A program made the translations under genes and the position numbers. The notes beneath the pieces were generated by a model. It searched no databases. It was not told the origin of the DNA and worked only from the letters and a program-made list of their open reading frames with translations. Below, piece after piece: positions 6,126 to 24,848 of a stretch of 34,890 bases of DNA (position 1 is the stretch's first letter; every line of letters begins with the position of its first letter). This DNA comes from a virus, in IMG/VR virus record IMGVR_UViG_3300032046_000110, positions 1-34,890 of that record. One strand, given 5' to 3'.

Positions 6126-7361
6126 TTATTTGCCTCCTGCCTGCTCGGCCGCCGCGGCAGGCAGGCCGATCGGTGAGATATTATTCGCCATGTAATAGCG
6201 ATCGCCCTCGGGATAGGCGCCCACGTCGTCCTTCTCGCGCGCCTCGTTGGGGGTCATGATACCGTTCTGGATGCGCTTCGCCATCGCCTCGGCGCGCGCC
6301 CGGCTGTCCATTCGCAGGAGCGATTCCCGGATGAACTTGAAATAGGTATCTGCTTGCTCATCCTGGCTCAGCCAGCGGATGCGCGCCGCTTCCTCCCACG
6401 GCACCAGGTAGGCGTCCAAGGTGCCTTGCAGGTATTCGATGTATTTCTGTTCGTTGCTGTTATAGGCCTGCTTACCCCGGTTGAGCATATGCTCGGGCAG
6501 GCCGAAGAAGTTGCAAATATCCTGGTCCGTGGCGTCGATGCTCTCCAAAAATTGCGCGTCTTTCAACTGGATGTCGATCGGCTCGAATTTCGTGATCTTG
6601 CTGTCGAACACCGCCAGGCGGTAGGCATTCTCGCTTCCGCTCATCGCCTTCTCATAAGCCTCGCGCACGATCTGGCGTTTCTCTTTGTCGAGCTCGCCGT
6701 TCAACTGGATATAAGCAGCCGGTAGGAAACCTTGTGAATAGAGCATGCTCTGCGTCTTGCGCGCCGCCAGTTGCCGCCCGAATGTCTCGCGCGCAAAGGT
6801 GATCACCCCGCGCCCCACGAAGCCGGTCGAGTCCGGATTGATCGACAAATGCAGGATCTCCACAGCGGGTATGAATTCGGTCTTGCCGTTGCTGAACGTA
6901 TGCCGGTACCAAAGATTGCCCCCCGTGTCGAAGACCGGCGAGGTGCGGTCGGCGGGCAGGACCAATAGCTGCCTGGGGCCGACCATCGGCTGCCAGACGT
7001 AGGCATTGCCGTAAAAAATTTGCCACTCGATGACCGCTTTTTTGAATTGGAAAGGCGTCCACCCCCAAGTGTTCGGCGAGACCTGCAGCAGGTACGCCAT
7101 ATTCCGTGTGACTTCGTCGGGTTGGACCTGTTGGATGTTTCGCCCCTCACGCTTGATCATTTGAAATGGCATCTTTGCGACGTCGTCAGAGATGATGTTC
7201 TTGGCCCGATATGCCGTGGCGATCGCCAGCGATCCGCTGACCGTCACCCTCTCCCCCGATTTCGTCTCGTAGCCGCGCCGCATCTCGTAATCAACCCGCG
7301 GGGTCGCCTGCGGATCTTCCTTGATTTTGGGGGAACCGCTTAGCAAACTACTCAGCAACAT
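6126..7361 (-). CDS. Portal protein (HK97 family)
   Basis: This 411-residue protein starts at ATG 7361 inside the end of the upstream membrane-protein gene. Family features in order: VSGSLAIATAYRAKNIISDD near residues 41-60, VAKMPFQMIKREG, the LQVSPNTWGWTPFQFKKAVI helix near 92-111, GNAYVW, a Gly-Arg-Gly turn in GFVGRGVITFARETFG, and the C-terminal NFFGLPEHMLNRGKQAYNSN box. It is the portal ring at the capsid vertex through which DNA is packaged by the terminase encoded upstream. Length and order (portal, protease, scaffold, coat) fit HK97-like siphoviruses. Confidence 0.92.
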   Translation of the reverse strand: MLLSSLLSGSPKIKEDPQATPRVDYEMRRGYETKSGERVTVSGSLAIATAYRAKNIISDDVAKMPFQMIKREGRNIQQVQPDEVTRNMAYLLQVSPNTWGWTPFQFKKAVIEWQIFYGNAYVWQPMVGPRQLLVLPADRTSPVFDTGGNLWYRHTFSNGKTEFIPAVEILHLSINPDSTGFVGRGVITFARETFGRQLAARKTQSMLYSQGFLPAAYIQLNGELDKEKRQIVREAYEKAMSGSENAYRLAVFDSKITKFEPIDIQLKDAQFLESIDATDQDICNFFGLPEHMLNRGKQAYNSNEQKYIEYLQGTLDAYLVPWEEAARIRWLSQDEQADTYFKFIRESLLRMDSRARAEAMAKRIQNGIMTPNEAREKDDVGAYPEGDRYYMANNISPIGLPAAAAEQAGGK

Positions 7362-7521
7362 GCTTAGCCTTTTCCTTTGCGATCAGCACGCCGAAAACGA
7401 TCAGCATCACGCCCGCTGTGATCCATGTGGCGATGGCGCTCAAAAGCGAAAGCCCATACAGGATGCAGGCGCATCCCGCCAGGAGAAGAAGATCATCAAA
7501 AAAACGCAAGAACAATTTCAT
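7348..7521 (-). CDS. Small two-helix membrane protein, holin candidate
   Basis: This 57-residue protein starts at ATG 7521 (ATGA overlap with the upstream stop) and overlaps the portal start. It holds two hydrophobic helices, about residues 11-30 (LLLLAGCACILYGLSLLSAI) and 33-48 (WITAGVMLIVFGVLIA), then a basic/acidic tail (KEKAKHVAE). Size and topology fit a class II holin, but nothing more specific can be read. It is translationally coupled to the 99-residue membrane protein upstream, and the two may act together in the envelope. Confidence 0.6.
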   Translation of the reverse strand: MKLFLRFFDDLLLLAGCACILYGLSLLSAIATWITAGVMLIVFGVLIAKEKAKHVAE

Positions 7522-7817
7522 TCCGTTGTCCTCTTTCGATTGCGTTCTTGCGAACGTGCATCATGCGCAGTCAGTATGCCGCTGAAACGGGCAACCTCGA
7601 TGGCAGTAGCCTTGATTTCATCGCCCAGTCGGATAGCCAGGTCGGCCATCGCTTTGCTGGTTTCCTCGCGCTGCTGTGTTAAAAATGCCTGCCATTGGAT
7701 ATCCCGCTGTTCGAGCGTTTTTAGGAAACGGTCTACGATCTTGATCGTAAACCAGATAAATATGCCCACCAGTGGAACCTGGACGAGCAGACTAATGTAA
7801 TCGCTTGCGTTTCCCAT
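7518..7817 (-). CDS. Single-pass membrane protein with cytoplasmic helix
   Basis: This 99-residue protein starts at ATG 7817 behind GAGAGGTG. Residues 8-28 are a membrane helix (ISLLVQVPLVGIFIWFTIKI). Residues 30-80 are a long charged helix (FLKTLEQRDIQWQAFLTQQR). This architecture is common among small phage membrane proteins annotated as holin-like or as inner-membrane accessory proteins. It is the first gene after the promoter at 7936-7963 and the structured leader at 7831-7914, so its expression should depend directly on that leader. Confidence 0.6.
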   Translation of the reverse strand: MGNASDYISLLVQVPLVGIFIWFTIKIVDRFLKTLEQRDIQWQAFLTQQREETSKAMADLAIRLGDEIKATAIEVARFSGILTAHDARSQERNRKRTTE

Positions 7818-7830
7818 CTGCACCTCTCGC

Positions 7831-7870
7831 AAAACAAAAACGCCCAACGACTCGTTTGAGTCGTTGGACG
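7831..7870 (-). terminator. Intrinsic terminator in the head-operon leader
   Basis: On the minus strand a 13-bp stem (one G-U pair) with loop AAAC at 7841-7870 is followed by TTTTTGTTTT at 7831-7840. This is a strong Rho-independent terminator placed between the promoter and the first gene (7817) of the head operon. Transcription of the operon must pass it, so it implies attenuation or antitermination. Confidence 0.85.
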
Positions 7871-7914
7871 CATCACTTCCAACTATCGTCCCGGTCGAAA
7901 ATACCAGGACTGCA
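7831..7914 (-). ncRNA. Leader RNA element, copy 1 (candidate attenuator or antitermination site)
   Basis: In RNA order this element has a TGCAG box (7910-7914), hairpin 1 made of GTCCTGG (7904-7910) and CCGGGAC (7888-7894), a spacer ending AGTGATGC, and the terminator hairpin with its U tract. A second copy at 12583-12661 keeps the TGCAGTCCTGGT, GACCGGGAC and AGTGATGC segments while the terminator stem has a different sequence but the same fold. The 5' (A)TGCA can pair with TGC(G/A) after the spacer, closing hairpin 1 as a short P1 helix. I do not recognise it as a known riboswitch class. Confidence 0.65.
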
Positions 7915-7935
7915 TAAATTGTTCTTACGATCTAA

Positions 7936-7963
7936 AGTATAACCCATTCAAAGATTTTGTCAA
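7936..7963 (-). promoter_or_regulatory. Sigma70-type promoter for the head operon
   Basis: On the minus strand TTGACA (7958-7963) and TATACT (7936-7941) are separated by 16 bases, close to consensus. Transcription would start near 7930, about 15 bases before the leader RNA element, and run into the head and tail genes. Confidence 0.8.
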
Positions 7964-8005
7964 TAGACCTATCTTAGAGAATCTTTGCCACAGAAACAGT
8001 CAATT

Positions 8006-8275
8006 TCAACCAATGATTTTGGCGGCGCAATCAGTATCGAAATGAACCCAGCCAACCACACGAGATAAAAACTTAGGCGAGCCCTTGGGAATTTTCATCC
8101 AGCAAATATGACAACGCCCGGCGCGCTGGGTACGTTCTCTGCCTGGAACGATGACCATTTTACCGCCTTGGTATTCTTCGCGGTAGTAATCCAGCGATCG
8201 CAGGAAACAGAACTCGTGAACGGTCAACAAGCCGCGGTTGAGAAAGTTTATGTGAAGATCAAGATCAAATATCAT
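8006..8275 (-). CDS. Small zinc-finger-like protein after the large terminase
   Basis: This 89-residue protein starts at ATG 8275, overlapping the terminase stop (TGATG). The N-terminal half begins MIFDLDLHINFLNRGLLTVH. The C-terminal half has Cys-x2-Cys (CHIC), then HFDTDC with a further Cys, plausibly a treble-clef zinc site. Small zinc proteins beside the terminase often have HNH-related or packaging-accessory roles, but no HNH core is visible here. The gene ends about 40 bases before the head-operon promoter, so it closes the packaging operon. Confidence 0.6.
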   Translation of the reverse strand: MIFDLDLHINFLNRGLLTVHEFCFLRSLDYYREEYQGGKMVIVPGRERTQRAGRCHICWMKIPKGSPKFLSRVVGWVHFDTDCAAKIIG

Positions 8276-11202
8276 CACATCCCCCAATCCTCGTCCAGGA
8301 TACCAGACAGATCGCTTTCCTTCAGCGATTGGCTTCGCACCATCGCCGTAATGATGGCGGCCAGTGGATCGATGCGCCTCGTGTCGCCTGCCTTCTTCTT
8401 TGAGAGCATGATGTTCTCTTTTGTATCCACAATCTCCCTGGCATTGCCGACCGCCCAACGTAAGAGCGGTGAGCCGTCATGCACCAGCTTGCCGCTGGCC
8501 ACCAGCTCACGGAATGTCTTGGTCGGCTCGCTCAAGATCTTCATCCACTGTGCAATCTCGACCGTGATGTAGCCCATTTCCGCCATTTCGATGGCGAAGT
8601 GAGTGGCGTTGTATGGGTCATAAGCAATCTCGTGCACCTTCCAGCCATACTCCCGCTCGCAATACTGGATATATTCCTGCACCTTCCGATAGTCAGTTAC
8701 ATCGCCCTCGGTGATGGTCAGCCAGCCATCCCGCGCCCAATCCCGATAGGGAATCTTGTCCAGCTTCTCGTGACGGTCCACTCCCCCCTCGGGGATGAAC
8801 CCATATGTGCAGACCGCCACCCGCTCGTCCTCCAGCAGGAAGACATTCCCAGCCGCTGTCAGATCGATCTTCTTCGACAGGTCCAGGCCGGATAACGTCA
8901 ATCGGCCCTTCGTCAGTTCCAGGAACTCCTCGCGCGAGACCGCGCACTGGTCCCATTTCGACAAGTTATCCCCCAGGGCAGGCGTCAGATATTCACCCAT
9001 ATAGGTGCTCTCGTTTCCATGCACCCAGATGTTCAGGTTCTTGACCCGGAACGTGCGGATCTTGGCCGGATCCTTCGAGCCAAAGGCTTCGTCGTGCATG
9101 TCTCGCAGCTCCTTCCTCATCACCTGGTTGCTCATCATCAGCGGGTTGGCCTTCGTCCAGTTCTTCGGGTCGTGCTCATCGTCGCCCTCGTCCAGCTCGC
9201 GGATCATCACGAAATAGCGCTCGTTTTTTACCTGGCCCTTCAGGATCATCTTGCAGTATTCGTATTCGTGATGGCAGGGGCTTTCCGTGTCCATGCCTGC
9301 GGTGGTGATGATCAGCATCAGAGGCTGGGCACGCTGGCCCTTGGCCGATGAGATTTGATCGTATATCTCGGATGTGGGATGGGCGTGGTACTCGTCCACG
9401 AACGCGCAGGATGGGGAAAACGCATCCTTGTTCTTGACCTCCCCGCTGAATGCTACCATCTCGCCGCCGCGTGACTTGTGGTTGATCTCGAACTTTCCGA
9501 TCTTGAGCCGGGCGCGGATATCCCGGCTCTGCTCGGCCATTTCCTTGGCCGAGTTGAACAGCACACGCGCCTGCCTTTTATCCACGGCAGTACAATAAGT
9601 TTCGGGTGACGCCTCCATGTCTCCGACCATCATGTACAGCCCGATCCCCGCCCCACGCGTGGTATTGTGCGTAGGTATCATGGTTTCGCCTACTAGATAT
9701 AGTTTCGATTGGGAATCAACCTGGATACAACGAACAGGCTTGCTCGGTATGGGATTCACGGCCACGATCTGCCTCATACTTGCTCTTGTACTTGTTGCCG
9801 GAGCATTCTTTTGCCGGCTCCGTTTCCTTTCAAGGCGGAATACCTCCTGTCCTTGATATGCCCAAAATTGGATTTTGAAGCATGTGCCACAGTCCTTTCC
9901 ATACAAAAGCGCACGACCCACTGATTGGGTTGGCTTATATCCCAGCGAACAAAGCAATTCGATGACATCTTCCGCCAGCAACGCATTGGTCGTCGAGAAA
10001 CTGCATTGTCCCGCCGGGCTAATCGTCCCGTCTGTATCCAAGAGACCCTGTAGCAATGCCTGTCTCTGTTCAATGGATGCTCTCAAATAGGGCATCGGAA
10101 TATGTTTGTTGTTGCGCAGATTTAATGCGCTTAACTTATGACCAAATGAATTCGTCGGGTCATTCCTAGCACCTTCTGGCGTACTTAAAGAGAACAAACC
10201 ACAGTTGCCGGGACGCGATTTAGTCTCATGAATAGGTACACCAGTCTTGGCAATTTCCTCCACAATTTGTATATCACTATAGCCAATAGTAATGCGCGCT
10301 CCAGTCGAATGCCCATCCCCAAGCCAACACCCCAGGGCATACGGGTTTATTGGAAGTTCCTTAGCAGGTAATGTCAAAGGCTCGGCCACCCGGATCCGGT
10401 GATTCCATTCAACGCGTCCATGCGTTTTGTTGAATGGAGTATCAACACTCAGCGTTCGTGCAATCTCTTCGGTTGTGTGTATAAAATCAATCGAAGTGAA
10501 TCTTTTGCTATGTGGACGATGTGTCTTTTTCATGTCGGTGTGCCATAGATGTCCTGCATCAGCCACAATCTTGGCGCCATCGGAGAACGTCAACTCGTAG
10601 CAGGTATGGCCGACCATTACATCCGACGTGTAAATCACCCTGGTTATCTGCCCTCTCTCGTCAAATAGTTTATCTCCCACTTTGACGTCAGCCATGCGTA
10701 CCCAACCATCAGGCGTTGGTAATAGAGTAGAAAGGGCCATCGCCTTCGCATTCTTACGCGCCTCGGTAACGTAGGCTTTGCGGAAACGCCGTACGCCTAC
10801 CGTACGGCCGTTGCGCCCGATTTTTTCCCTCCGCGAGATCCATCCAAAAATACACGATACTTCGAACCGGTGCGACGCGATGAGTCTAATGGGTTTCCCC
10901 GCCAGGCGACCCTTGACGTGGTTCAGGCTTGCAAACCAATCCACCGCCACGAGGTCCGCTTGGGCGCCATCGAACACCCACTCGAACCTGGGATCCTTCT
11001 TCGGGACAACTTGCCTCGTCGCCTTTTTGATCCGCTTCGCCAGATCCTTCGGGAGCTGTCCCGCCCGTGCCAGGTCCCGCAGATGGCGCAGGCAGGCCAA
11101 TCGCTCCATGTTGCCTACATTTCGCTTGCGCTCCACGGCCTCGATGGCATATAAGGTCGCCGGGTGTACCGAGTAGGTGCTGCGCATCGTGATCTGGGCC
11201 AT
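8275..11202 (-). CDS. terL: Large terminase subunit, interrupted by an intein
   Basis: This 975-residue precursor starts at ATG 11202, coupled to the small-subunit stop (TGATG). Removing residues 154-513 (intein) leaves a 615-residue HK97-type terminase. The ATPase Walker A is restored only after splicing (RKNAK joined to TTRGAGIG). Walker B is FVDEYHAH (about residues 601-608), and IITTAGMDTES is the coupling motif. The RNase H-like nuclease shows acidic residues in LSGLDLSKKIDLTA, YDPYNATHFAIE and RRIDPLAAII. It drives DNA into the prohead through the portal and cuts the concatemer. Copy 2 of dispersed motif A lies at codons 6-12 and encodes MRSTYSV. The terminase order (HNH, small, large) is typical of cos or headful HK97-like phages. 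Confidence 0.93.
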   Translation of the reverse strand: MAQITMRSTYSVHPATLYAIEAVERKRNVGNMERLACLRHLRDLARAGQLPKDLAKRIKKATRQVVPKKDPRFEWVFDGAQADLVAVDWFASLNHVKGRLAGKPIRLIASHRFEVSCIFGWISRREKIGRNGRTVGVRRFRKAYVTEARKNAKAMALSTLLPTPDGWVRMADVKVGDKLFDERGQITRVIYTSDVMVGHTCYELTFSDGAKIVADAGHLWHTDMKKTHRPHSKRFTSIDFIHTTEEIARTLSVDTPFNKTHGRVEWNHRIRVAEPLTLPAKELPINPYALGCWLGDGHSTGARITIGYSDIQIVEEIAKTGVPIHETKSRPGNCGLFSLSTPEGARNDPTNSFGHKLSALNLRNNKHIPMPYLRASIEQRQALLQGLLDTDGTISPAGQCSFSTTNALLAEDVIELLCSLGYKPTQSVGRALLYGKDCGTCFKIQFWAYQGQEVFRLERKRSRQKNAPATSTRASMRQIVAVNPIPSKPVRCIQVDSQSKLYLVGETMIPTHNTTRGAGIGLYMMVGDMEASPETYCTAVDKRQARVLFNSAKEMAEQSRDIRARLKIGKFEINHKSRGGEMVAFSGEVKNKDAFSPSCAFVDEYHAHPTSEIYDQISSAKGQRAQPLMLIITTAGMDTESPCHHEYEYCKMILKGQVKNERYFVMIRELDEGDDEHDPKNWTKANPLMMSNQVMRKELRDMHDEAFGSKDPAKIRTFRVKNLNIWVHGNESTYMGEYLTPALGDNLSKWDQCAVSREEFLELTKGRLTLSGLDLSKKIDLTAAGNVFLLEDERVAVCTYGFIPEGGVDRHEKLDKIPYRDWARDGWLTITEGDVTDYRKVQEYIQYCEREYGWKVHEIAYDPYNATHFAIEMAEMGYITVEIAQWMKILSEPTKTFRELVASGKLVHDGSPLLRWAVGNAREIVDTKENIMLSKKKAGDTRRIDPLAAIITAMVRSQSLKESDLSGILDEDWGM
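9664..10743 (-). mobile_element. Class 3 intein with LAGLIDADG homing endonuclease in TerL
   Basis: This 360-residue insertion begins with Ala (AMALSTLLPTPDGW) instead of Cys or Ser, and ends MIPTHN before Thr. The class 3 signature is complete: Trp67 in block B (DAGHLWHT), Cys339 in block F (VRCIQVDS) and Thr358 in block G (PTHN). The endonuclease has two LAGLIDADG helices, PYALGCWLGDG and ALLQGLLDTDG. Alignment of the 14-residue start with known class 3 inteins puts the junction after Lys153. The intein therefore sits between the Walker A Lys and the two Thr, and the enzyme cannot bind ATP until splicing occurs. Confidence 0.9.
11168..11187 (-). repeat. Dispersed motif A, copy 2 (start of TerL)
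   Basis: This is a full 20-bp copy (minus strand ATGCGCAGCACCTACTCGGT) within the first codons of the large terminase gene, read in the frame MRSTYSV. Confidence 0.85.
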
Positions 11203-11660
11203 CAGTCGAACTTCTTTCCGAACTTGTCGTGGTGCTCATCTGCGCGCTTCTTCACCAGCCGCACTCGCGCGCTGGGGTTGAACCCCAATTTATCGGCATA
11301 TGATGCGATGATCCGCGACCAGACTTGCAGCTCCTTGATGTCATCCATAGATTTTGGCCTACGGCTTGCTGCCTCGCGATATTGCACATACGCATTACAA
11401 TAGACGGCCAGCATTTCGGTGTCCAGAACATCCAAGAGTTCAGCGGTCGCATTCAGCCCCGCGACTTCCTTCAGTTTTCGCATCCATACTCTACGCGCCT
11501 CGGGACTCAGCCAATCGGGCGGCTTCAGCTTGACGGGTACCTTTCGTTTTAGCTTCCCAGCGGCCTCCTGGCGCGCAGAAACCTCGGCCGCGGTCCAGTG
11601 CTTCCCCCCACCCTTTTGGCCGATCTCCATCGTTTCTGATGCTACCGCTTTTGCCGGCAT
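11202..11660 (-). CDS. terS: Small terminase subunit (P27 family)
   Basis: This 152-residue protein has a Lys-rich N-terminus, then the P27-type core PPDWLSPEARRVWMRKLKEV (about 48-67). That core is followed by LNATAELLDVLDTEMLAVYC, the helical YVQYREAA block and the end IIASYADKLGFNPSARVRLV. This LSPEARRVW...LD...L..YC..Y pattern is characteristic. It recognises the packaging site on phage DNA and recruits the large subunit, whose start overlaps its stop. The ribosome site is weak. ATG 11660 is the first in-frame Met after the upstream gap. Confidence 0.88.
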   Translation of the reverse strand: MPAKAVASETMEIGQKGGGKHWTAAEVSARQEAAGKLKRKVPVKLKPPDWLSPEARRVWMRKLKEVAGLNATAELLDVLDTEMLAVYCNAYVQYREAASRRPKSMDDIKELQVWSRIIASYADKLGFNPSARVRLVKKRADEHHDKFGKKFD

Positions 11661-11742
11661 CTAAAAAATCTCAGCTTTTATTAGGGATATAATCTCGCGT
11701 TTGTTAGCCTCGCCGGTCTTGAACTCCTTTTCAAAACTTTTT

Positions 11743-12096
11743 TTACCCCCTATACTTCGAGCCGTCGGCATAATGTTTTTTATTGTGACATCGCTTGCAC
11801 AATCCTTGGAGGTTGCTCCAATCGTCCGTGCCGCCCTGACTACGTGGGAGGATATGATCCGGTACGATGGCCGGGACACGTGGACTATGTAACCCAAATG
11901 GATTGACACACAATGGATGCGCCTTGAGAAACGGATCGCGGACCCTTGTCTTCCAGTTCCAGCCATAACCACGAGTAGACGCGGAAGGACGATCGTCCAC
12001 TGCCCGCGGACGTGGATGCCGCGGGCAGTCTTGACCGGGTTGTACCAGGATGGGGCATCCAGGCACACGGCACGGATGCGGCGAGCGTTTAGGCAT
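11743..12096 (-). CDS. HNH endonuclease (packaging-associated)
   Basis: This 117-residue protein starts at ATG 12096 (eight-base overlap with the membrane gene upstream). An alternative ATG lies 24 bases earlier. It opens with a CRVPGCPILV zinc knuckle and continues with STRGYGWNWKTRVRDPFLKA. The HNH core is VPDHILPRSQGGTDDWSNLQ followed by LCKRCHNKKH, with Cys pairs that would hold a structural zinc. Such nucleases next to terminase genes, as HK97 gp74, assist DNA cutting at packaging. The spacing to the terminase genes supports that role. Confidence 0.88.
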   Translation of the reverse strand: MPKRSPHPCRVPGCPILVQPGQDCPRHPRPRAVDDRPSASTRGYGWNWKTRVRDPFLKAHPLCVNPFGLHSPRVPAIVPDHILPRSQGGTDDWSNLQGLCKRCHNKKHYADGSKYRG

Positions 12097-12556
12097 TCTT
12101 GCCGCTGTATGATGCACCAATCAGCGGCACCCCGGCAGCTTTGAGAGCGTTATGCGCGGATTGCGATCCAGTGATCTGGACGATAAATCCGAGCACGAAT
12201 AGGATGACCATCGCAATCTGTCCGGCATATCCGTCCAGGATATTCATTGTCAGGTCAGGACGGAAGACGCCGAAGATTACCAGCGCGATGAACGCGGCCA
12301 GGTTCATACCGGCTGCCCATTTATTGGCGGTGCCATCCTTCACCAAGCCGGTCAACTTGAGCAGGTTGACCAGCGCGGCTATCAGCTTCGAGATGCCGAT
12401 TAGCGACGCAAACCCTAGAACGATGGTGATTACCACATTCAGCACATCAGGCGGGAGCGGCATGTCAGCCGCCGGCGCCGCATAGACTGTGGCCGGCAAT
12501 AATGCCGCCAGTGCAATAACCAGCAAAACGGTTAGGATCAGGATAGTGCGTTTCAT
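12089..12556 (-). CDS. Multi-pass membrane protein, holin candidate
   Basis: This 155-residue protein starts at ATG 12556, chosen because AAAGGAG lies seven bases upstream. It opens with a signal-like helix (MKRTILILTVLLVIALAALL) ending in an Ala-x-Ala-like TVYAAP site. Three further hydrophobic helices follow (about 36-52, 78-95 and 108-126), separated by short loops such as KLTGLVKDGTANKW. It is the first gene of the packaging operon, behind leader copy 2. Late expression and small size fit a holin, but an endolysin is not adjacent (it lies at 15676-16590). A secreted or envelope role cannot be excluded. Confidence 0.6.
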   Translation of the reverse strand: MKRTILILTVLLVIALAALLPATVYAAPAADMPLPPDVLNVVITIVLGFASLIGISKLIAALVNLLKLTGLVKDGTANKWAAGMNLAAFIALVIFGVFRPDLTMNILDGYAGQIAMVILFVLGFIVQITGSQSAHNALKAAGVPLIGASYSGKNA

Positions 12557-12582
12557 TTTCAATCTCCTTTTCAAATTGGTTG

Positions 12583-12661
12583 AAACAAAAACACCCGACG
12601 CCACAATAGCGCCGGGTGCATCACTCTCGACAGATGTCCCGGTCTAGCACCAGGACTGCAA
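12583..12661 (-). ncRNA. Leader RNA element, copy 2, with intrinsic terminator
   Basis: This matches copy 1 at 7831-7914. It has the TGCAG box at 12656-12660, hairpin 1 from GTCCTGG (12650-12656) and CCGGGAC (12636-12642), an AGTGATGC spacer end, then a 10-bp terminator stem (12592-12601 with 12609-12618, loop TATTGTG) and TTTTTGTTT (12583-12591). The terminator stem sequence differs from copy 1 while its structure and U tract are kept. It lies immediately upstream of the packaging-operon gene that starts at 12556. Confidence 0.65.
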
Positions 12662-12704: not shown

Positions 12705-12710
12705 ATTATA
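12705..12710 (-). promoter_or_regulatory. Possible -10 box (TATAAT) for the packaging operon
   Basis: A perfect TATAAT preceded by TGATG lies about 45 bases before leader copy 2, the same layout as the stronger promoter before copy 1. No good -35 hexamer is visible, so this promoter may need an activator. Confidence 0.45.
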
Positions 12711-12728: not shown

Positions 12729-12956
12729 CTACCTATCCATTGTCTTATAGATATTCCGCGTACGTTTTGATGGATGGCGCTTTCTATTTTTCGGCATCTT
12801 CTGCCGTTGATCTACATAATTCTTTGTCTTCTTGAAAACATTTCGATTGCTCTCGAATACTGGTTGATATGGGACCTCGACGATGGTCTTTTTCGATTCA
12901 GATCTTACAAACAAACCTTTCAACCACAGCCAAAAACGATTGAAGATATTTTTCAT
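12729..12956 (-). CDS. Small basic hypothetical protein
   Basis: This 75-residue protein starts at ATG 12956 (overlap with the upstream stop). It opens with an aromatic amphipathic helix (MKNIFNRFWLWLKGLFVRSE). The second half is strongly basic (KKTKNYVDQRQKMPKNRKRH). It is the last gene of the early operon, directly before the late leader region. It could bind nucleic acid or the membrane. No family is recognised. Confidence 0.5.
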   Translation of the reverse strand: MKNIFNRFWLWLKGLFVRSESKKTIVEVPYQPVFESNRNVFKKTKNYVDQRQKMPKNRKRHPSKRTRNIYKTMDR

Positions 12957-13243
12957 TTTGGTTCCAGGTTAAGTATCATCTCGATCAGACCGAACATTGC
13001 ATCCTCGCCAATTATCCAATCATGCAATTTCCCACAGACCGTGCAGCGAATGCTGTCCATGCTCCCGATCACCTTCCCACGCAGCATCGGCAGTTCGGCC
13101 GGCGCGTCGCAACGTGCGACCGACGTCTCGTAAAGCATCAAGGCCAACACCTTATGTTCTCCGACCTTGATTATCTTGACCTCGCCGAGGGAGTGGTCGT
13201 CTTTTTGTTGCCGCGGCCAGAACCTGCGCTCATTCGCTGGCAT
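12953..13243 (-). CDS. Small hypothetical protein with a Cys-x2-Cys pair
   Basis: This 96-residue protein starts at ATG 13243, which overlaps the end of the helicase-loader-like gene. It starts MPANERRFWPRQQKDDHSLG. The middle is a beta-hairpin-like stretch (VKIIKVGEHKVLALMLYETS). Near the end lies a single Cys-x2-Cys (IRCTVCGKLHDW), as in half a zinc ribbon, then IGEDAMFGLIEMIL. The overlaps on both sides put it in the replication operon. Function unknown. Confidence 0.5.
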   Translation of the reverse strand: MPANERRFWPRQQKDDHSLGEVKIIKVGEHKVLALMLYETSVARCDAPAELPMLRGKVIGSMDSIRCTVCGKLHDWIIGEDAMFGLIEMILNLEPK

Positions 13244-15299: not shown

Positions 15300-15667
15300 T
15301 AGATCAACTCCATCTGAACCGCCTCGCCGAATTGCATCCGGGCCGCCCTCAGCAGAGCCTGGCGGGTTTCGTTCATATCGGCGATCTTGGCCCCGAACTC
15401 GGCCCGGTCGAATTCCTGGAACTCCGCCAACGTTTCCGCCAGGTAGTAACCGCCATTCACCCCCGGCATGGCGCAGATCAAATGTCCCTGCCGGCGCAGC
15501 TGCTTGATGCACTCCCGCATTGCTCGCTCGTGCACGTTGTAACCTAAGATATTCAGCCTTTTTACCAAATGGCCGCGTCCGATCGCTCTCTGTCGGCCCT
15601 GGTGACAAGCCAGCACACACAGCACTGCCGTTTCCAATCCGGCGGGGTAGGATGAATAATCCGACAT
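15299..15667 (-). CDS. Winged-helix-like DNA-binding protein
   Basis: This 122-residue protein starts at ATG 15667 with a GAGGATT site eight bases upstream. Residues 16-72 form a helix-turn-helix with a wing: LETAVLCVLACHQGRQRAIG, then GHLVKRLNILGYNVHERAMR (recognition helix ECIKQLRRQGHLICAM) and GGYYLAET as the wing hairpin. The C-terminal helix is charged (EFQEFDRAEFGAKIADMNET). It lies between the endolysin and replication genes. It might regulate the middle or late switch, but this is a guess. Confidence 0.6.
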   Translation of the reverse strand: MSDYSSYPAGLETAVLCVLACHQGRQRAIGRGHLVKRLNILGYNVHERAMRECIKQLRRQGHLICAMPGVNGGYYLAETLAEFQEFDRAEFGAKIADMNETRQALLRAARMQFGEAVQMELI

Positions 15668-15675
15668 GAGAATCC

Positions 15676-16590
15676 TCAATCCACGAATACTGCCAGGCTT
15701 TGCCCAGCGTAAAACAGCGCAATCCAATTGCCATCCACGAGCCTGGCCCATAGTTCAGTGCCGATATATCTCGTCTCTAATACCTGAGCCTTCGTGCCAT
15801 AGACCAGAACCCGCACAACCTTATAAATCGTCCCGGCGCCAGCGCGCACTCGCAGCCAGGGGAAGGCAATAATTTTCACGGTCCTGTTTTTGTTGACAGT
15901 GGGGGGAATAACCGGCGTACCATCCAAAACCAGCCAGGCTTCCAGATCCGCCGCCGTGCCGGGGAAAACATTGATATCCATCGCCCGGCTCGATCCCGGC
16001 AGGATGATCCTGTCGCCACTGCATTGCCACATCCGCACCGCTCCTGGCGCTTTATTTGCATTTATAGGCGGCCATGTGAGCTTCCCGATCTTCGTCCGCA
16101 GTTCGTCCCAACTGAGCGTAATACGGCTGTCCGGATACATCGAATATGGGTACTGCGCCCACCAGAATTCCGCTTTCGGCCAAATCGAAACTTCCGCCAG
16201 GAACCACTCGCCGGTATAAATGTGTGCCCGCCATATCTTTTGCACCCGTTCCATGAAATCGCCGAGCTGCCCCGCATATACTGCTGCCGAATAACCGCTC
16301 TTGCGTACCTCCACATCGATCGCAACCGCCGGGCAAAGATTTGGCATGTGCATCGCCAGCCAATCATAATTATCCTTGCCGGTCACCCACGGATTGTAGA
16401 CGAAGTACGGCCAGCGCAGGAATCCCTCTGCCTCCGCCCACTGCTTCGAAAAGCCTGCGTCCATGTGGTGCCCGCCTGACATGTCGTTCAGCCGGATCAC
16501 CAGTCCGCCCACGCCCCCGGCGAACAGCGCCGCCTCGTCAATCTCTAACTGGCCTTCCCAAACATCCAGCACCAAGGTGTAATTGTTCAT
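15676..16590 (-). CDS. Endolysin: GH25-type lysozyme with C-terminal SH3 domain
   Basis: This 304-residue protein starts at ATG 16590 with AGGAG nine bases upstream. The glycosidase barrel shows LVLDVWEGQLEIDEAALF (first catalytic-strand Asp), PYFVYNPW, AVAIDVEVRKSGYS (the Asp/Glu pair of GH25 enzymes), HIYTGEWF, FWWAQYPY and MWQCSGD. Residues 245-304 look like a bacterial SH3 domain (FPWLRVRAGAGTIYKVVRVL, then ALFYAG) for cell-wall binding. It cleaves the glycan strand of peptidoglycan. It has no signal peptide, so a holin is needed. The gene is in the early half of the genome, about 3 kb from the nearest holin candidate. Confidence 0.82.
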   Translation of the reverse strand: MNNYTLVLDVWEGQLEIDEAALFAGGVGGLVIRLNDMSGGHHMDAGFSKQWAEAEGFLRWPYFVYNPWVTGKDNYDWLAMHMPNLCPAVAIDVEVRKSGYSAAVYAGQLGDFMERVQKIWRAHIYTGEWFLAEVSIWPKAEFWWAQYPYSMYPDSRITLSWDELRTKIGKLTWPPINANKAPGAVRMWQCSGDRIILPGSSRAMDINVFPGTAADLEAWLVLDGTPVIPPTVNKNRTVKIIAFPWLRVRAGAGTIYKVVRVLVYGTKAQVLETRYIGTELWARLVDGNWIALFYAGQSLAVFVD

Positions 16591-16623
16591 CGGATTTATT
16601 CTCCTGCTTCTTATTTATTTATC

Positions 16624-18474
16624 TTAAGCCGAAATAACAATAGTCTGTCCATCCAGGCCTTCGTATTCGGTCATGCCTTCCAGGAAAGACTGATCCAATT
16701 CCAGCCAGTTCTCCGGGATCTTTACGCCCCAGGTTTTCGCCACGCCCTGCAGATGCTTCGCCGTGGCCAGCGGCCCGTTCTTCCGGATCGAGTGACCGAT
16801 AATATTATTCAGCGCCCACTCGGCCATCTCTTGCCGCAGAAGCTCGAGCTTTTTCCCTTTGCTGGCTTTCTCGAATTCCTTATCAATATCTTTTCGGAGT
16901 AGCGCCAGCAGAGGTTCGACTTTGTCCATGCCGGCAAAGGCAGGGGCAAAAACAGGAACAGCCACGATCTCGATGAAATTGTCGCTTTGTTTCCGGTTCT
17001 CCCATTCGATATTTCGGCGCCGGCTCTCTTCTGCATATTTATTTCCCTGCTCGTTGGGAGCGTTCGCCTTCTTGCTCTGTTCGATCAGTTCATGGGCTGT
17101 CTTGCCGACCACTATCGCCTGTACGGTGTAGCTGTCGGTGAAATCATGTTTATTGCCGTACGTGTTCGGGGACGAGCTGTATTTCGCCTGCAGGCAGATG
17201 TCGACTTGGGCGTCCCAGATCTTCTCAAATTTGCTTTTGTCGCTCCATTGCTTTTTGAGCGTATAGGTCTCCTTCCCATGCTCCTGCGGATCGTAGATCG
17301 GAAGATTGAGCTCTTTCGACATCCGCTGAAGTTCGGCCTGGTTCCAGGCCTTGATCTTGCGCCTGTGGCAGGCCGCGAAGGCGCAGTAATGTGTCTTGTC
17401 CACCCGGGCATAGAACGGGCAAGCTGTGCAGGCCGGCGGATCGATAAAATGCACCAGTCGCTCGATATCATTCTCTGGAGCGCCATCGGTGATCAATTTC
17501 TGTACAAGCTCTGGCTTCCTGAGACAAAGTACCTCGTTCCACTTTCTTAGACTGGCTCGCATCTCGGCCGCCGAAGGTTCCCAGCCAAGCGCCTTGGCTT
17601 CCTCGGCTTCACTGACCACGGGCAGCAGGTCGTTTGGGAAGTTATCTTTGCTCGTGGCCAGCGGCCAGAGCCCCACCCCCGCCTGCGGCGCTTCCTGGTC
17701 CCGCCAGGAGCTCCACATCTCGATGCCCTTGGTGTTGAACTTCAGCTGCTGGTTGACAACCGACTCCACGTCGGCGTTCGGCTTGGAGAGTTTCTCGGCC
17801 GCCTTTTTCACCGCTCCCTCGCCGGCCACCCGCTGGACGGTAAGAAGCTTGCGAGCCGTTCCGACCGTCATCTCGCCGGCTGCCAATTTCTCCTGTACCG
17901 CTGCCGGCAGGTCCAGCAGGCGCACCGTTCCGCGCACCGTGGCATCGTTCACGCTGAATAATTCTCCCGCCTGCCGGCTGGTAGCGTGGAACTCGTCCAT
18001 GTAGCGTTTCATGGCGGCCGCCAATTCCACCGGGTTCAGATCCTTGCGATAGATATTCTCGGAGATCGCCATCTCGAACATCCGCTGGTCGGTCAGGTCC
18101 TGCACCTCTAGTGGCATGGTGTTGAAATCACGCCCAGCTTTTCCTGCTGCATGAACCCACTCGATCAATTCCGGCCGTGAGGTGCCGGCACCTTCGGCTT
18201 TATTGCCATCTTCCAATCCGCTTTGAATGCTGGCCAACAGTCGGAACGCTTCCAGCCGCCGGTGGCCAATGGCCAATTGGAATATAGTCCCCTTAACAGA
18301 AGATGGTGAGATAGGGGTAGGACGCCCCACCGGGATCTGCATCAGCCCATCCCGGGCAATCGAAATCGCCAATTCCTCAATGGCCGCCGGATCAATTGCC
18401 CTCCGTGACTGCCAGGGATTGGGCTCGATCAGGTCGAGCCGGTACGTGCCGAGTAGGTGCTGTGCATCAGTCAT
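16624..18474 (-). CDS. ParB-like nuclease/partition domain protein
   Basis: This 616-residue protein starts at ATG 18474, overlapping the stop of the upstream gene. An N-terminal ParB/Srx domain is clear: YRLDLIEPNPWQSRRAIDPA, IEELAISIARDGLMQIPVGR, then FQLAIGHRRLEAFRLL. The central HTH follows (ISENIYRKDLNPVELAAAMK, then QAGELFSVNDATVRGTVRLL). A Cys-rich stretch (PPACTACPFYARVDKTHYC, then FAACHRRK) may bind zinc. The C-terminal half is charged and helical. Copies of motif A and motif B lie inside the coding region. It may be a partition-like or DNA-modification accessory protein. Its size, with no ParA nearby, makes a simple plasmid-partition role doubtful. Confidence 0.75.
   Translation of the reverse strand: MTDAQHLLGTYRLDLIEPNPWQSRRAIDPAAIEELAISIARDGLMQIPVGRPTPISPSSVKGTIFQLAIGHRRLEAFRLLASIQSGLEDGNKAEGAGTSRPELIEWVHAAGKAGRDFNTMPLEVQDLTDQRMFEMAISENIYRKDLNPVELAAAMKRYMDEFHATSRQAGELFSVNDATVRGTVRLLDLPAAVQEKLAAGEMTVGTARKLLTVQRVAGEGAVKKAAEKLSKPNADVESVVNQQLKFNTKGIEMWSSWRDQEAPQAGVGLWPLATSKDNFPNDLLPVVSEAEEAKALGWEPSAAEMRASLRKWNEVLCLRKPELVQKLITDGAPENDIERLVHFIDPPACTACPFYARVDKTHYCAFAACHRRKIKAWNQAELQRMSKELNLPIYDPQEHGKETYTLKKQWSDKSKFEKIWDAQVDICLQAKYSSSPNTYGNKHDFTDSYTVQAIVVGKTAHELIEQSKKANAPNEQGNKYAEESRRRNIEWENRKQSDNFIEIVAVPVFAPAFAGMDKVEPLLALLRKDIDKEFEKASKGKKLELLRQEMAEWALNNIIGHSIRKNGPLATAKHLQGVAKTWGVKIPENWLELDQSFLEGMTEYEGLDGQTIVISA
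18173..18198. repeat. Dispersed motif B, copy 1 (in the ParB-like gene)
   Basis: A palindrome with core GGTGCCGGCACC and flanks GGCCGTGA / TTCGGC. It encodes AEGAGTSRP in an insertion-like loop between ParB motifs. Confidence 0.7.
18448..18467 (-). repeat. Dispersed motif A, copy 3 (start of the ParB-like gene)
   Basis: A full copy (minus strand ATGCACAGCACCTACTCGGC) lies at codons 3-9 of the ParB-like gene, read in the frame AQHLLG, different from the frame used in TerL. Confidence 0.85.
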
Positions 18475-19018
18475 GGCGCGCCTCGCTTTCCGGCTCCATG
18501 CCCTGGCGGCTGCCTTTGGCGCCGGTGACTCGCTGCCGGCCGGCTTTGGGGTGATGCAGGATCGTCCCAGGCTCGAACTCGCCCCTGGCCAGGCGGAGGT
18601 TCTTTTCCTCGATCGTGATCTGTTCGGAGACGTATCCATCCGAGCTCGGCAAGAATACCCGCCAGGCCTTTATCGGCCCGTACTTCTTCCTTTGAAGGTT
18701 GGGCGGCCGAGTAGGTGCTGTGCATATAACTGCTGATTGATCGGAGCTCTGCCTTGCACTTTTCCACCGGCGTGCGGGACGTATTTGCGTTGCTCTGCCT
18801 TGCAATTTTCCACCGTTGCGCGGGACATATTTGCGCTTTTCGTTCCCGCCGAACAAAGCCTCCAATGCCGCAGCCTGGCGTTCGTCATTGACTATCAGAT
18901 CGAAGGTCTCTGCGATCTCGATGCGATTCCCGCCGCAGGCTGCTTCCAGGCCTGCAATCACCGCATTCAGGTCGTCCCGGCTGATTGGCGCCGTGATATG
19001 TATCTTTTGCTCGTTCAT
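18467..19018 (-). CDS. Hypothetical protein rebuilt by repeats (mosaic)
   Basis: This 183-residue protein starts at ATG 19018. Its first 50 residues (MNEQKIHITAPISRDDLNAV, then the ERQAAALEALFGG block) look like an ordinary small folded protein. The middle is a 46-bp duplication (18746-18837) in which the second unit is read in another frame, then motif A copy 4 (VICTAPTRP). The C-terminal 75 residues (KKYGPIKAWRVFLPSSDGYV, then QITIEEKNLRLARGEFEPG) again look native. It may be two former genes fused by repeat expansion. No family recognised. Confidence 0.5.
   Translation of the reverse strand: MNEQKIHITAPISRDDLNAVIAGLEAACGGNRIEIAETFDLIVNDERQAAALEALFGGNEKRKYVPRNGGKLQGRATQIRPARRWKSARQSSDQSAVICTAPTRPPNLQRKKYGPIKAWRVFLPSSDGYVSEQITIEEKNLRLARGEFEPGTILHHPKAGRQRVTGAKGSRQGMEPESEARHD
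18706..18725 (-). repeat. Dispersed motif A, copy 4
   Basis: A full copy inside the gene at 18467-19018, read in the third frame (CTAPTRP). With copies 2 and 3 this shows that all three frames are used. Confidence 0.85.
18746..18837 (-). repeat. 46-bp tandem duplication
   Basis: Units 18746-18791 and 18792-18837 are close copies with a few substitutions. The period of 46 shifts the reading frame, so one unit encodes KRKYVPRNGGKLQGRA and the other TQIRPARRWKSARQSS. Confidence 0.75.
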
Positions 19019-19065
19019 GGTTTCCTTCATTTCTGGTTTGAACGGACTTGCTTTGCTCAGCACTT

Positions 19066-19084
19066 ACCGAGTAGGTGCTGCGCA
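19066..19084 (-). repeat. Dispersed motif A, copy 5
   Basis: A 19-base copy lies in the gap between the tRNA gene and the ATG at 19018. It ends 10 bases from the tRNA 3' end. Confidence 0.8.
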
Positions 19085-19093
19085 CTCGGCAGG

Positions 19094-19166
19094 TAGCGGG
19101 AGGCAGATTCGAACTGCCGACCTCCGGGTTATGGGCCCAGTGAGCTGACCTCTGCTCTATCCCGCA
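19094..19166 (-). tRNA. tRNA-Met (CAT), initiator-like
   Basis: This is a 73-base cloverleaf: acceptor TGCGGGA/TCCCGCT, D stem GAGC/GCTC, anticodon stem CTGGG/CCCGG with loop CCCATAA (anticodon CAT), T stem GGCAG/CTGCC with loop TTCGAAT, discriminator A. CCA is not encoded (ACCT follows). The first acceptor pair is a T-T mismatch, three G-C pairs stand next to the anticodon loop, and D-stem pair 11-24 is A-T. All three are hallmarks of bacterial initiator tRNA. Confidence 0.85.
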
Positions 19167-23031: not shown

Positions 23032-23137
23032 AAAGCGGACTTAGCATGATTAATATAGCACATCTTTACTTAAAAGTCAACCAAAGTGTGGACCCGGAGG
23101 GGGTCGAACCCTCATAAGCGAATGCTAAGTCCGCTTT
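23032..23137. repeat. 16-bp inverted repeat shared between the tRNA anticodon arm and upstream DNA
   Basis: AAAGCGGACTTAGCAT stands on the plus strand at 23032-23047 and on the minus strand at 23122-23137, inside the tRNA-like gene. A second shared block (GCTTACGAGGGT at 23020-23031, GCTTATGAGGGT in the tRNA) is present in the opposite order, so the upstream copy is a permuted piece of the tRNA. Confidence 0.8.
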
Positions 23138-23156
23138 GTTCCCATCAACCGGGCCC
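23089..23156 (-). tRNA. tRNA-like gene, apparent anticodon TAG, atypical
   Basis: This is a 68-base cloverleaf: acceptor GGGCCCG/CGGGTCC (one G-T pair), a 3-bp D stem TTG/CAA, anticodon stem GCGGA/TTCGC with loop CTTAGCA, a four-base variable loop, T stem GAGGG/CCCTC with loop TTCGACC, discriminator A, no CCA. Anticodon TAG would mean Leu(CTA), but the long variable arm of tRNA-Leu is missing and position 37 is C. It could be a degenerate tRNA, an att-site remnant or an unusual tRNA. Confidence 0.6.
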
Positions 23157-23186
23157 ACGCCTTGATTGTATATAAAAAACGGCAAT

Positions 23187-24848
23187 ATGACAATCCCTCC
23201 CTTTCCCCCTGGCGACCGGGTCGCCGGCTACTTCCGTGACTCCGGCGGCGACGAGCAGGATCTCTCCATCGAACGCCAGGTGGCCGAGTTCCGCCGCTGG
23301 CTGGCCGAAAACGACCTGCATGAAGGCGAGCTCTTTACCGATGCCGCCCAACCCGGGTCTAGCACGGTCGGCCGGGCCGGCTTCCAGTCCATGCTGCGCC
23401 ACTTCCGCTCCGGCGATATCCCCGAGACCGGCCTGGTCATCTGGCGCTCCAACCGTTTCGGCAGAAACACCAACGAGTCCCAATTCTACAAAGCCGACAT
23501 CCGCCGCCGCGGTTATATCATCTACTCCCTGACCGACAAGATCCCCACCGATCGCTACGGCCAGGTCATCGAATATCTGCTAGACTGGAAAGACCAGGAG
23601 TTTCTCGAGACCCTCAGCGAAGACGTGGCCTCCGGCCTGCGCCACATCGTCGAGGCCTACGGCGCCATGCCCGGCACACCACCGCGCGGCTTCCTGCGCC
23701 AGCCGATCACCGTCGGCGCCCGCCGCAGCGGGCAGCCCCACATCCTGCACCGCTGGGTCCCCGATGAGACCATGATCCCGCTTGTCCGCCGCGCCTACCA
23801 GATGCTCCTGGATGGCGCATCATTGATAAAAATCCAGACCGTCACCGGCCTGTATCCCTCGCTCAACTCCTGGGCCACCTTCTTCCGCAACCCGCTCTAC
23901 AAAGGCGTCCTGCATTTCAAGGACCTGGTCATCGAGAATTACTGCGAGCCGGTCGTGGACCCGCTCACCTGGGAACGGGCGCAGCGCATCCTCGACCTGC
24001 GCGGAGGTCGCCGGCATCTCAACGCCGATGACCCATCCCTGGGCGCAGCCGAGCAGGCCCGCCGCATCGCCCAGCATCCCCGCCGCATGGCCAGCCCCTG
24101 GCTGCTCTCCGGCCTGGCCCGCTGCGCCCGGTGCAGCGCTCCGCTCAACGGCCACGTCATCCTCGATCATACATACTATGAGTGCAGTCGATCGGTCCGC
24201 CGCAAGGATTGCAATGCCCGCAAGATCCCATCCGCCCCACTCGAAGCAGCCGTGCTCGATCAGATACGTAAGCTTTTGGCCAGCCCCGAAACGTTGCAGG
24301 CCTACCAGTCCGATCATTTGGCTGATTACGAGCGCGCCGTCAGCGAATTCCCCGCCCGCCGGCAGGAGTTGGTCGCCCGCCTGGCCAACCTGCGGAGGCA
24401 GATATCCCGTCTCGCCGCTGCTGTCGCCGACCACGGCCATTCCCCCGCCCTGCTCGATAAACTTACCGTCCTGGAGACCCAAGAGTATGAACTCAAAGAT
24501 GAACTTGCCCAGCTCGATATCCTCCTGCAGGCCAGGCCCGAGCCGCTCGGTCCGCGCCGCATCCAGCATTTGTCCGAACGCTTCGAAGCCATCCTATCCA
24601 CCGGCAGCCCGGAAGAACAACGCAAGGCCCTGGCCGGCTGGATCCCGAAACTACTTGTTGAACGCCAGGACAAGCACAGCATCCTGGTCTACATGGAAGT
24701 CTACGTTCCCCCGCTCCCCGGCCCCGATCCACCCGGCGGCCGTCGAAAACTAACGCAACATCCCCCCTCTGCTTGGGGGCACCTGCTCGTAACGTTAGAA
24801 ATCACCATCCCGATCCTCCGCAAGCAATCTGTCCGCTTAACCTCCTAG
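23187..24848 (+). CDS. int: Large serine recombinase (integrase)
   Basis: This 553-residue protein starts at ATG 23187. A TTG 21 bases upstream is an alternative, and no clear ribosome site is seen. The resolvase domain shows the nucleophile in VAGYFRDSGGDEQDLSIERQ (Ser18, followed by the D-E-Q...S-I-E-R-Q helix) and catalytic Arg in VIWRSNRFGRN. The recombinase domain follows (GTPPRGFLRQPITV, then FFRNPLYKGVL). A zinc ribbon has Cys-x2-Cys (RCARCSAPLNGH) and CSRSVRRKDC. A long coiled coil (PARRQELVARLANLRRQISR) precedes the C-terminus. It integrates the phage at attB and excises it, the latter with a directionality factor not identified here. The gene overlaps the convergent tail-fibre gene by 12 bases. 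Confidence 0.92.
   Translation: MTIPPFPPGDRVAGYFRDSGGDEQDLSIERQVAEFRRWLAENDLHEGELFTDAAQPGSSTVGRAGFQSMLRHFRSGDIPETGLVIWRSNRFGRNTNESQFYKADIRRRGYIIYSLTDKIPTDRYGQVIEYLLDWKDQEFLETLSEDVASGLRHIVEAYGAMPGTPPRGFLRQPITVGARRSGQPHILHRWVPDETMIPLVRRAYQMLLDGASLIKIQTVTGLYPSLNSWATFFRNPLYKGVLHFKDLVIENYCEPVVDPLTWERAQRILDLRGGRRHLNADDPSLGAAEQARRIAQHPRRMASPWLLSGLARCARCSAPLNGHVILDHTYYECSRSVRRKDCNARKIPSAPLEAAVLDQIRKLLASPETLQAYQSDHLADYERAVSEFPARRQELVARLANLRRQISRLAAAVADHGHSPALLDKLTVLETQEYELKDELAQLDILLQARPEPLGPRRIQHLSERFEAILSTGSPEEQRKALAGWIPKLLVERQDKHSILVYMEVYVPPLPGPDPPGGRRKLTQHPPSAWGHLLVTLEITIPILRKQSVRLTS

Follow-up and report, generated by a model that had tools for sequence, protein, structure and literature searches.

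The stretch of DNA analysed here, a 34,890-nt IMG/VR virus record referred to as the window, carries two copies of a leader RNA on its minus strand (7914-7834, site A; 12660-12583, site B), and the anatomy of this leader is that of an attenuator/antiterminator switch. Together with its relatives it almost certainly constitutes a real structured RNA family in which an antiterminator hairpin and an intrinsic terminator are mutually exclusive. We predict with good confidence that the family gates the packaging and head operons of the phages that carry it. Each copy probably serves as a transcription-attenuation switch heading a phage operon, with c1, a small CxxC protein, as the most likely factor. 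The RNA family, its alternative folds, their covariation, and the position and number of the elements per genome were all established computationally.

Read on the minus strand, the site A copy consists of TGCAGTCCTGGT-ATTTTCG-ACCGGGAC-GATAGTTGGAAGTGATGC and its terminator (7914-7834), and the site B copy of TGCAGTCCTGGT-GCTAG-ACCGGGAC-ATCTGTCGAGAGTGATGC and its terminator (12660-12583). The combined leader motif, AGTCCTGGT-N4-12-ACCGGGAC-N4-20-GTGATGC, occurred exactly twice, at 7911-7870 and 12657-12618 on the minus strand, compared with no occurrence in 100 dinucleotide shuffles, which bears out the sequence-only reading that had noticed two matching copies with a common hairpin 1. The intrinsic terminators which that reading had placed behind the copies were also recovered: they rank as the strongest two within 5-16 kb, and their stem sequences are unlike each other. 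Its "closing P1 helix" (TGCA with TGCR) held as a pairing but not as a closing helix, since the 3' half lies in the loop of hairpin 2 and a pseudoknot describes it better; the overlap of hairpin 2 with the terminator, the key part of the element, was absent from it. Both copies have a sigma70-like promoter upstream, including the strong one previously assigned to copy 1, and a gene start close downstream. Copy 1 (site A) stands about 20 nt ahead of the gene starting at 7817, which leads into the portal operon, and copy 2 (site B) about 30 nt ahead of the gene starting at 12556, which leads into HNH, TerS, and TerL. The copies therefore do precede the packaging and head operons, as proposed, with the amendment that the first genes themselves encode small membrane or holin-like proteins and the packaging and head genes follow behind them.

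Table 1. Features of the two leader copies and neighbouring genes in the window (position 1 is the first letter of the window).
Feature	Position	Strand	Remarks
Site A promoter (copy 1), TTGACA-16-TATACT	7936..7963	-	
Site A pseudoknot 5' strand, TGCA	7911..7914	-	
Site A hairpin 1, GTCCTGGT-ATTTTCG-ACCGGGAC	7888..7910	-	
Site A hairpin 2 (antiterminator), GTTGG-AAGTGATGCGT-CCAAC	7863..7883	-	3' arm doubles as terminator 5' arm
Site A intrinsic terminator and U tract	7834..7871	-	
First gene after site A, 99 aa, small membrane protein c44	7518..7817	-	leads into portal operon
Portal protein	6126..7361	-	PF04860
Site B -10 box (copy 2), TATAAT	12705..12710	-	without a good -35
Site B pseudoknot 5' strand, TGCA	12657..12660	-	
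Site B hairpin 1, GTCCTGGT-GCTAG-ACCGGGAC	12636..12656	-	
Site B hairpin 2 (antiterminator), TGTCG-AGAGTGATGCACC-CGGCG	12610..12632	-	
Site B intrinsic terminator and U tract	12583..12619	-	
First gene after site B, 155 aa, holin-like membrane protein c4	12089..12556	-	relative matches Phage_holin_1 only below cut-off
Terminase small subunit (TerS)	11202..11660	-	
Terminase large subunit (TerL) with intein	8275..11202	-	
c1, small CxxC protein, 96 aa, candidate trans-acting antiterminator	12953..13243	-	upstream of site B; role inferred

Hairpin 2 (GTYGG, a loop with a TGATGC core, CCRAC) is formed by a 4-7 nt arm lying 3' of hairpin 1, which pairs with the terminator's 5' arm around a loop of 9-13 nt; the loop core is conserved as TGATGC or ATGAGC. 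This overlap was present in 52 of the 52 copies analysed and was built from 20 different 5-nt arm pairs (e.g., GTTGG/CCAAC, GATGG/CCATC, GACGG/CCGTC, TTCGG/CCGAA, GGAAG/CTTCC, GGCGG/CCGCC). When halves were swapped between copies and the chimeras re-optimised, the pairing score of hairpin 2 fell from 5.05 to a mean of 4.32, with a maximum of 4.66 in 1000. The GCA of the UGCA at the 5' end of the leader pairs with TGC in loop 2 as a pseudoknot, for which inspection revealed the compensated versions GUG/CAC in L167, GUC/GAC in L175:14919 (the automatic triplet table registers both of these one position off), and GCU/AGC in L200; in about nine divergent copies, one of the three pairs is lost. Counted over both hairpins and the pseudoknot (17 pairs, 41 distinct rows, in an alignment fitted to hairpins 1 and 2 and not to the pseudoknot), 97.8% of the cells were paired, compared with 91.0% after shuffling and at most 44% in slid controls. 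Two-sided changes affected 11 pairs versus 3.2 in shuffled alignments, with no comparable value in the slid controls, and the covariation score reached 0.260 versus 0.124 +/- 0.008 upon shuffling. Folding predictions assigned hairpin 2 a median probability of 0.98 in RNA truncated behind it and approximately 0 in the full-length leader, at predicted free energies of about -5 kcal/mol for hairpin 2 and about -28 kcal/mol for the terminator. Because the terminator wins in the full leader, hairpin 2 appears to be a metastable antiterminator that needs something to hold it for readthrough to occur.

The 52 sense copies, most of them close relatives, came from IMG/VR contigs and Anaerolineales prophages, and 19 records held exactly two on the same strand. 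Pattern scans of viral and genome contigs yielded 30 distinct true copies, including one (L023) in a prophage of a Candidatus Villigracilaceae genome (Anaerolineae), and already at this stage six contigs carried two; as the patterns fixed much of hairpin 1, they account for some of its invariance in the 30-copy set. Of the pattern-scan copies, 27 served to build a covariance model (R1), which, run over whole records, detected exactly two copies, both on one strand, in 13 records other than the window. Applied to 400 Anaerolineales genomes, the model gave strong copies in seven, two of which had clear pairs; these strong matches occurred exclusively in phage or prophage settings, none before a metabolic gene. 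In these distant copies hairpin 1 differs widely in sequence, yet its arms still pair (CCCTTGG/CCGAGGG, CTCCTGG/CCGGGAG, GTCCCCA/TGGGGAC, AGCCCGA/TCGGGCT, GGTCGCA/TGCGACC). A draw across the whole phylum gave a good score solely for a prophage that was already known, and two further phylum-wide hits, L210 and L211 (31 and 34 bits), were set aside because they look like ordinary terminators, as do most of the weak covariance hits at about 23-34 bits (e.g., L115-L118). Pattern hits lacking the promoter-hairpin-terminator unit were likewise rejected (L005, L007-L015, L017, L018, L020-L022, L024, L028, L029, L034, L042, L046, L047, L050, L052, L053, L055, L057-L070, and L072-L078); most look like chance matches within genes.

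The homologues with compensatory changes and the location before packaging and head operons in relatives, both of which the sequence-only reading had proposed to look for, were thus found, and its notion of a new paired attenuator or antitermination RNA is supported as anatomy by the covariation, the exclusive antiterminator and terminator, and the two copies per phage. No support emerged for its suggestion of a riboswitch with a metabolite ligand. Consistent with its failure to recognise any riboswitch consensus, Rfam 15 at the gathering score returned only tRNA matches and none to the leader, and in evalue mode only chance-level matches; our literature searches found no description of such an element.

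A -10 box with at least five of six matches lay upstream of 82% of the copies, compared with 34% in shuffles, and the promoters of site B lack a clear -35. Gene maps of 25 phage or prophage regions revealed a recurring order of upstream genes, c1, site B, a holin-like gene, HNH and/or TerS, TerL, site A, small membrane proteins, portal, and head genes, in which site B precedes the holin-like/HNH/TerS/TerL operon and site A lies between TerL and portal. The gap between element and gene amounts to a few tens of bases in nearly all copies. Judging from their functions, the genes behind the elements are probably late genes, and the position of the two elements suggests that packaging and head genes may be switched on together. 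Only 11 other strong sense terminators were found over the 25 regions, one being the second element of G358 and most others lying just upstream of an element; this scarcity within the operons argues for leader-proximal attenuation over processive antitermination.

Several further observations were made on these regions. The G358 region (L174, G358:C1:3004001-3020000) comprises an integrase-like gene with an element immediately behind it, genes for a membrane protein and for TerL-like and portal-like proteins, and a second element, and it has neither early genes nor c1; it might be a satellite-like or degraded prophage and might depend on a helper. In G020 (15620-19134) and similar regions in relatives, two genes that look ParB-like and DNA methylase-like by eye lie between two TerS paralogues, the block being situated between site B and TerL. 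Site B transcripts would start near GAAAGGAGG (window 12700-12660, minus strand), which has no start codon behind it and is followed in site B leaders by a conserved CAAYTGAATAT stretch; its counterpart in L033 is GAAAGGAGGTGATCC, which we take, from the known 16S sequence, to be complementary to the 3' end of 16S rRNA. The TerL gene of the window (8275-11202, minus strand) is interrupted by a LAGLIDADG intein, with the ATPase match resuming at residue 518, and a relative (G002/L006) has a very similar intein. The 17-mer GCGCAGCACCTACTCGG occurs nine times in the window at two mismatches or fewer, where none is expected (3010, 11169, 18449, 18707, 19067, 20021, 20187, 20587, and 31833), eight times on the minus strand and in some cases near ORF starts. 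The window further encodes tRNA-Met and tRNA-Leu (19092-19166 and 23088-23156, both on the minus strand), the tRNA-Leu gene adjoining a large serine-recombinase-like ORF (23166-24848).

The c1 proteins measure 71-129 aa and share an invariant His, a CxxC (CxxxxC in some), and a Trp. By profile, c1 was detected in 22 of the 25 regions, equal to 22 of the 23 that reach upstream of site B: two of the regions without it begin downstream of site B, which leaves G358, despite its two elements, as the one true absence. It usually lies no more than 2.5 kb upstream of site B, with a distance of about 16 kb in G301. Among the 400 Anaerolineales genomes, c1 was present in 16, versus six of the seven with strong elements (hypergeometric P ~1e-8), and divergent elements missed by the first search were found beside c1 in G052, G048, and G416; several other c1 genomes yielded no detectable element. 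Within a genome, hairpin 1 is more alike between the two copies than in permuted pairs (distance 0.204 versus 0.306, 0/5000) and more alike than at the same site across genomes, and loop 2 is likewise more alike than in chance pairs; within-genome resemblance of the terminators is weak or none. One shared factor may therefore read both leaders of a genome, the likeness of hairpin 1 counting in favour. The distance between c1 proteins correlated with that between hairpin 1 sequences given the TerL distance (r 0.62, 0/5000 permutations). For site A alone, TerL distance and c1 distance follow the leader equally well, and some of the c1 signal may therefore stem from linkage and shared ancestry.

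Comparisons of c1 with known proteins pointed to no established family. It matched nothing in Pfam or PHROG and was found in none of 50,697 isolated phage records, and single-protein searches of viral contigs returned close relatives only. The AlphaFold2 model of c1 (pLDDT 75, a moderate confidence) consists largely of beta structure plus a C-terminal helix and had no significant match among solved folds; weak BIR-domain matches (E 0.006) to solved structures were taken as chance around the CxxC region, and Foldseek and VIA-align returned nothing beyond marginal PC4/Pur-like matches, with Z no higher than 2.4. In a library of viral models, c1 matched one unnamed protein (E 4e-4). We regard c1 as a candidate trans-acting factor and consider the odds of that role about evenly balanced.

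We envisage the following sequence of events. RNA polymerase would start about 10-60 nt upstream of the leader; hairpin 1 would form first, then hairpin 2 and the pseudoknot while the 5' arm of the terminator emerges. By default, the far more stable terminator would displace hairpin 2, and transcription would end before the first gene. Upon a signal, a trans-acting factor would clamp hairpin 1, hairpin 2, and the pseudoknot and thereby block the terminator; readthrough would then turn on the packaging (site B) and head (site A) operons together, presumably late in infection. The factor would most likely be c1, whose gene closes the upstream block and immediately precedes site B, in much the way that the Q gene of lambda precedes pR'-tR'.

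The most serious competitor to this attenuation switch is action in cis without a phage protein, by a put-like RNA that binds RNA polymerase and makes the adjacent terminator ineffective. Two copies per genome near promoters, with two hairpins in compact tertiary contact, would suit such a mode, and HK022 has two put RNAs of about 70 nt, each with two stem-loops, that need no dedicated protein (PMC9378689). Nevertheless, hairpin 2 and terminator exclude each other in every copy, an overlap not required for put action; a persistently modified polymerase would have hardly any further strong terminators to pass; and hairpin 1 follows the divergence of c1, all of which makes this explanation improbable. 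We regard it as quite unlikely that a host factor or small ligand stabilises hairpin 2 in the manner of a riboswitch and couples the operons to the state of the cell. The compact pseudoknotted fold before an expression platform does resemble many riboswitches, but the strong matches in the 400 genomes are restricted to phages and prophages and never precede a metabolic gene, Rfam gave no match, and the stem sequences drift together within a genome, unlike a fixed ligand pocket.

Slightly less probable still is that the elements are stand-alone terminated small RNAs, or insulators against readthrough from upstream, that precede genes by position only. Each unit does have its own promoter and terminator, but in nearly all copies the next gene begins no more than a few tens of bases away, and an insulator has no need for hairpin 2 or the pseudoknot, yet both covary. 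In many copies CAG TCC TGG comes after TTG or ATG, which could be read as the opening of a Trp-containing leader peptide; attenuation by such a peptide is nonetheless scarcely credible, because the reading frames are of unequal length, no Shine-Dalgarno sequence is suitably spaced, and the codons are altered in divergent copies (CCCTTGG, GTCCCCA, AGCCCGA) whose base pairs are kept. The c1-dependent attenuation switch thus accounts best for the leader as a whole. There is about an even chance that it represents an undescribed two-part control, in which a pseudoknotted RNA antiterminator, present twice per genome, and a new small CxxC RNA-binding protein replace, in phages of Anaerolineales, the DNA-bound Q strategy of lambdoid phages and open two operons simultaneously.

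Little is known about regulation in phages of the largely uncultivated Chloroflexota, and the hosts in question are uncultivated. Our analysis provides a covarying RNA family together with a named candidate regulator, and the family can be used as a marker for finding such prophages. If the proposal is true, it would add a further independent way of gating phage structural operons, by RNA attenuation as opposed to a DNA-bound or N/nut factor.

In lambda, a regulator gene is followed by a promoter with a short terminated leader and then by the operon. A similar layout recurs here: in 22 of the 23 regions, a gene (c1, whose regulatory role is putative) precedes a terminated leader. The Q proteins of lambda and phage 21 exert late antitermination at pR'-tR' (PMC6606751); Q recognises DNA (the QBE) and modifies polymerase, whereas the conserved part of the phage leader is RNA that overlaps the terminator, c1 showed no Pfam or PHROG match that would place it in the Q family, and two such operons are present here as opposed to one under Q. 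The put RNAs of HK022 are similarly short two-hairpin RNAs, two per genome, near promoters (PMC9378689), but they serve early operons, with no described overlap with a terminator arm and no partner gene, and their long bulged stems, as described there, were not seen in the phage leaders. The parallels to HK022 put and lambda N/Q that the sequence-only reading had drawn hold as analogies, homology to any of them not having been found (put being compared by description). In conAn of pLS20-type plasmids, a small protein and an RNA element act at the start of a mobile element's long operon (PMC8955417), resembling the element described here and c1 in its putative role; conAn is processive over many internal terminators, whereas the phage operons have hardly any strong terminators other than those of the leaders.

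BglG/SacY-type ribonucleic antiterminators, in which a protein-stabilised hairpin excludes an overlapping terminator (PMC3369931), share this exclusion with the phage leader, but they control carbohydrate transport through a PTS-regulated protein, and no sequence or protein relation to the phage system was seen. The target leaders of ANTAR proteins (EutV, NasR, AmiR) carry two hairpins in tandem, of which the second overlaps an intrinsic terminator on the terminator's 5' side, and such leaders occur at several places in a regulon (PMC3369931); the phage leader likewise has two hairpins with the second overlapping the 5' arm of the terminator. The ANTAR loops are hexanucleotides with A1 and G4, whereas loop 1 of the phage leader is variable and mostly 4-8 nt long, loop 2 comprises 9-13 nt with the conserved TGATGC/ATGAGC core, and a pseudoknot is present; a search for ANTAR-domain proteins gave no match in 10 records, with none in the control genomes either. 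As neither the ANTAR loop signature nor homology to Q proteins was found, the system is not filed as ANTAR or Q. By analogy, the leader is best regarded as acting like an ANTAR- or BglG-type antiterminator set in a Q-like genetic layout.
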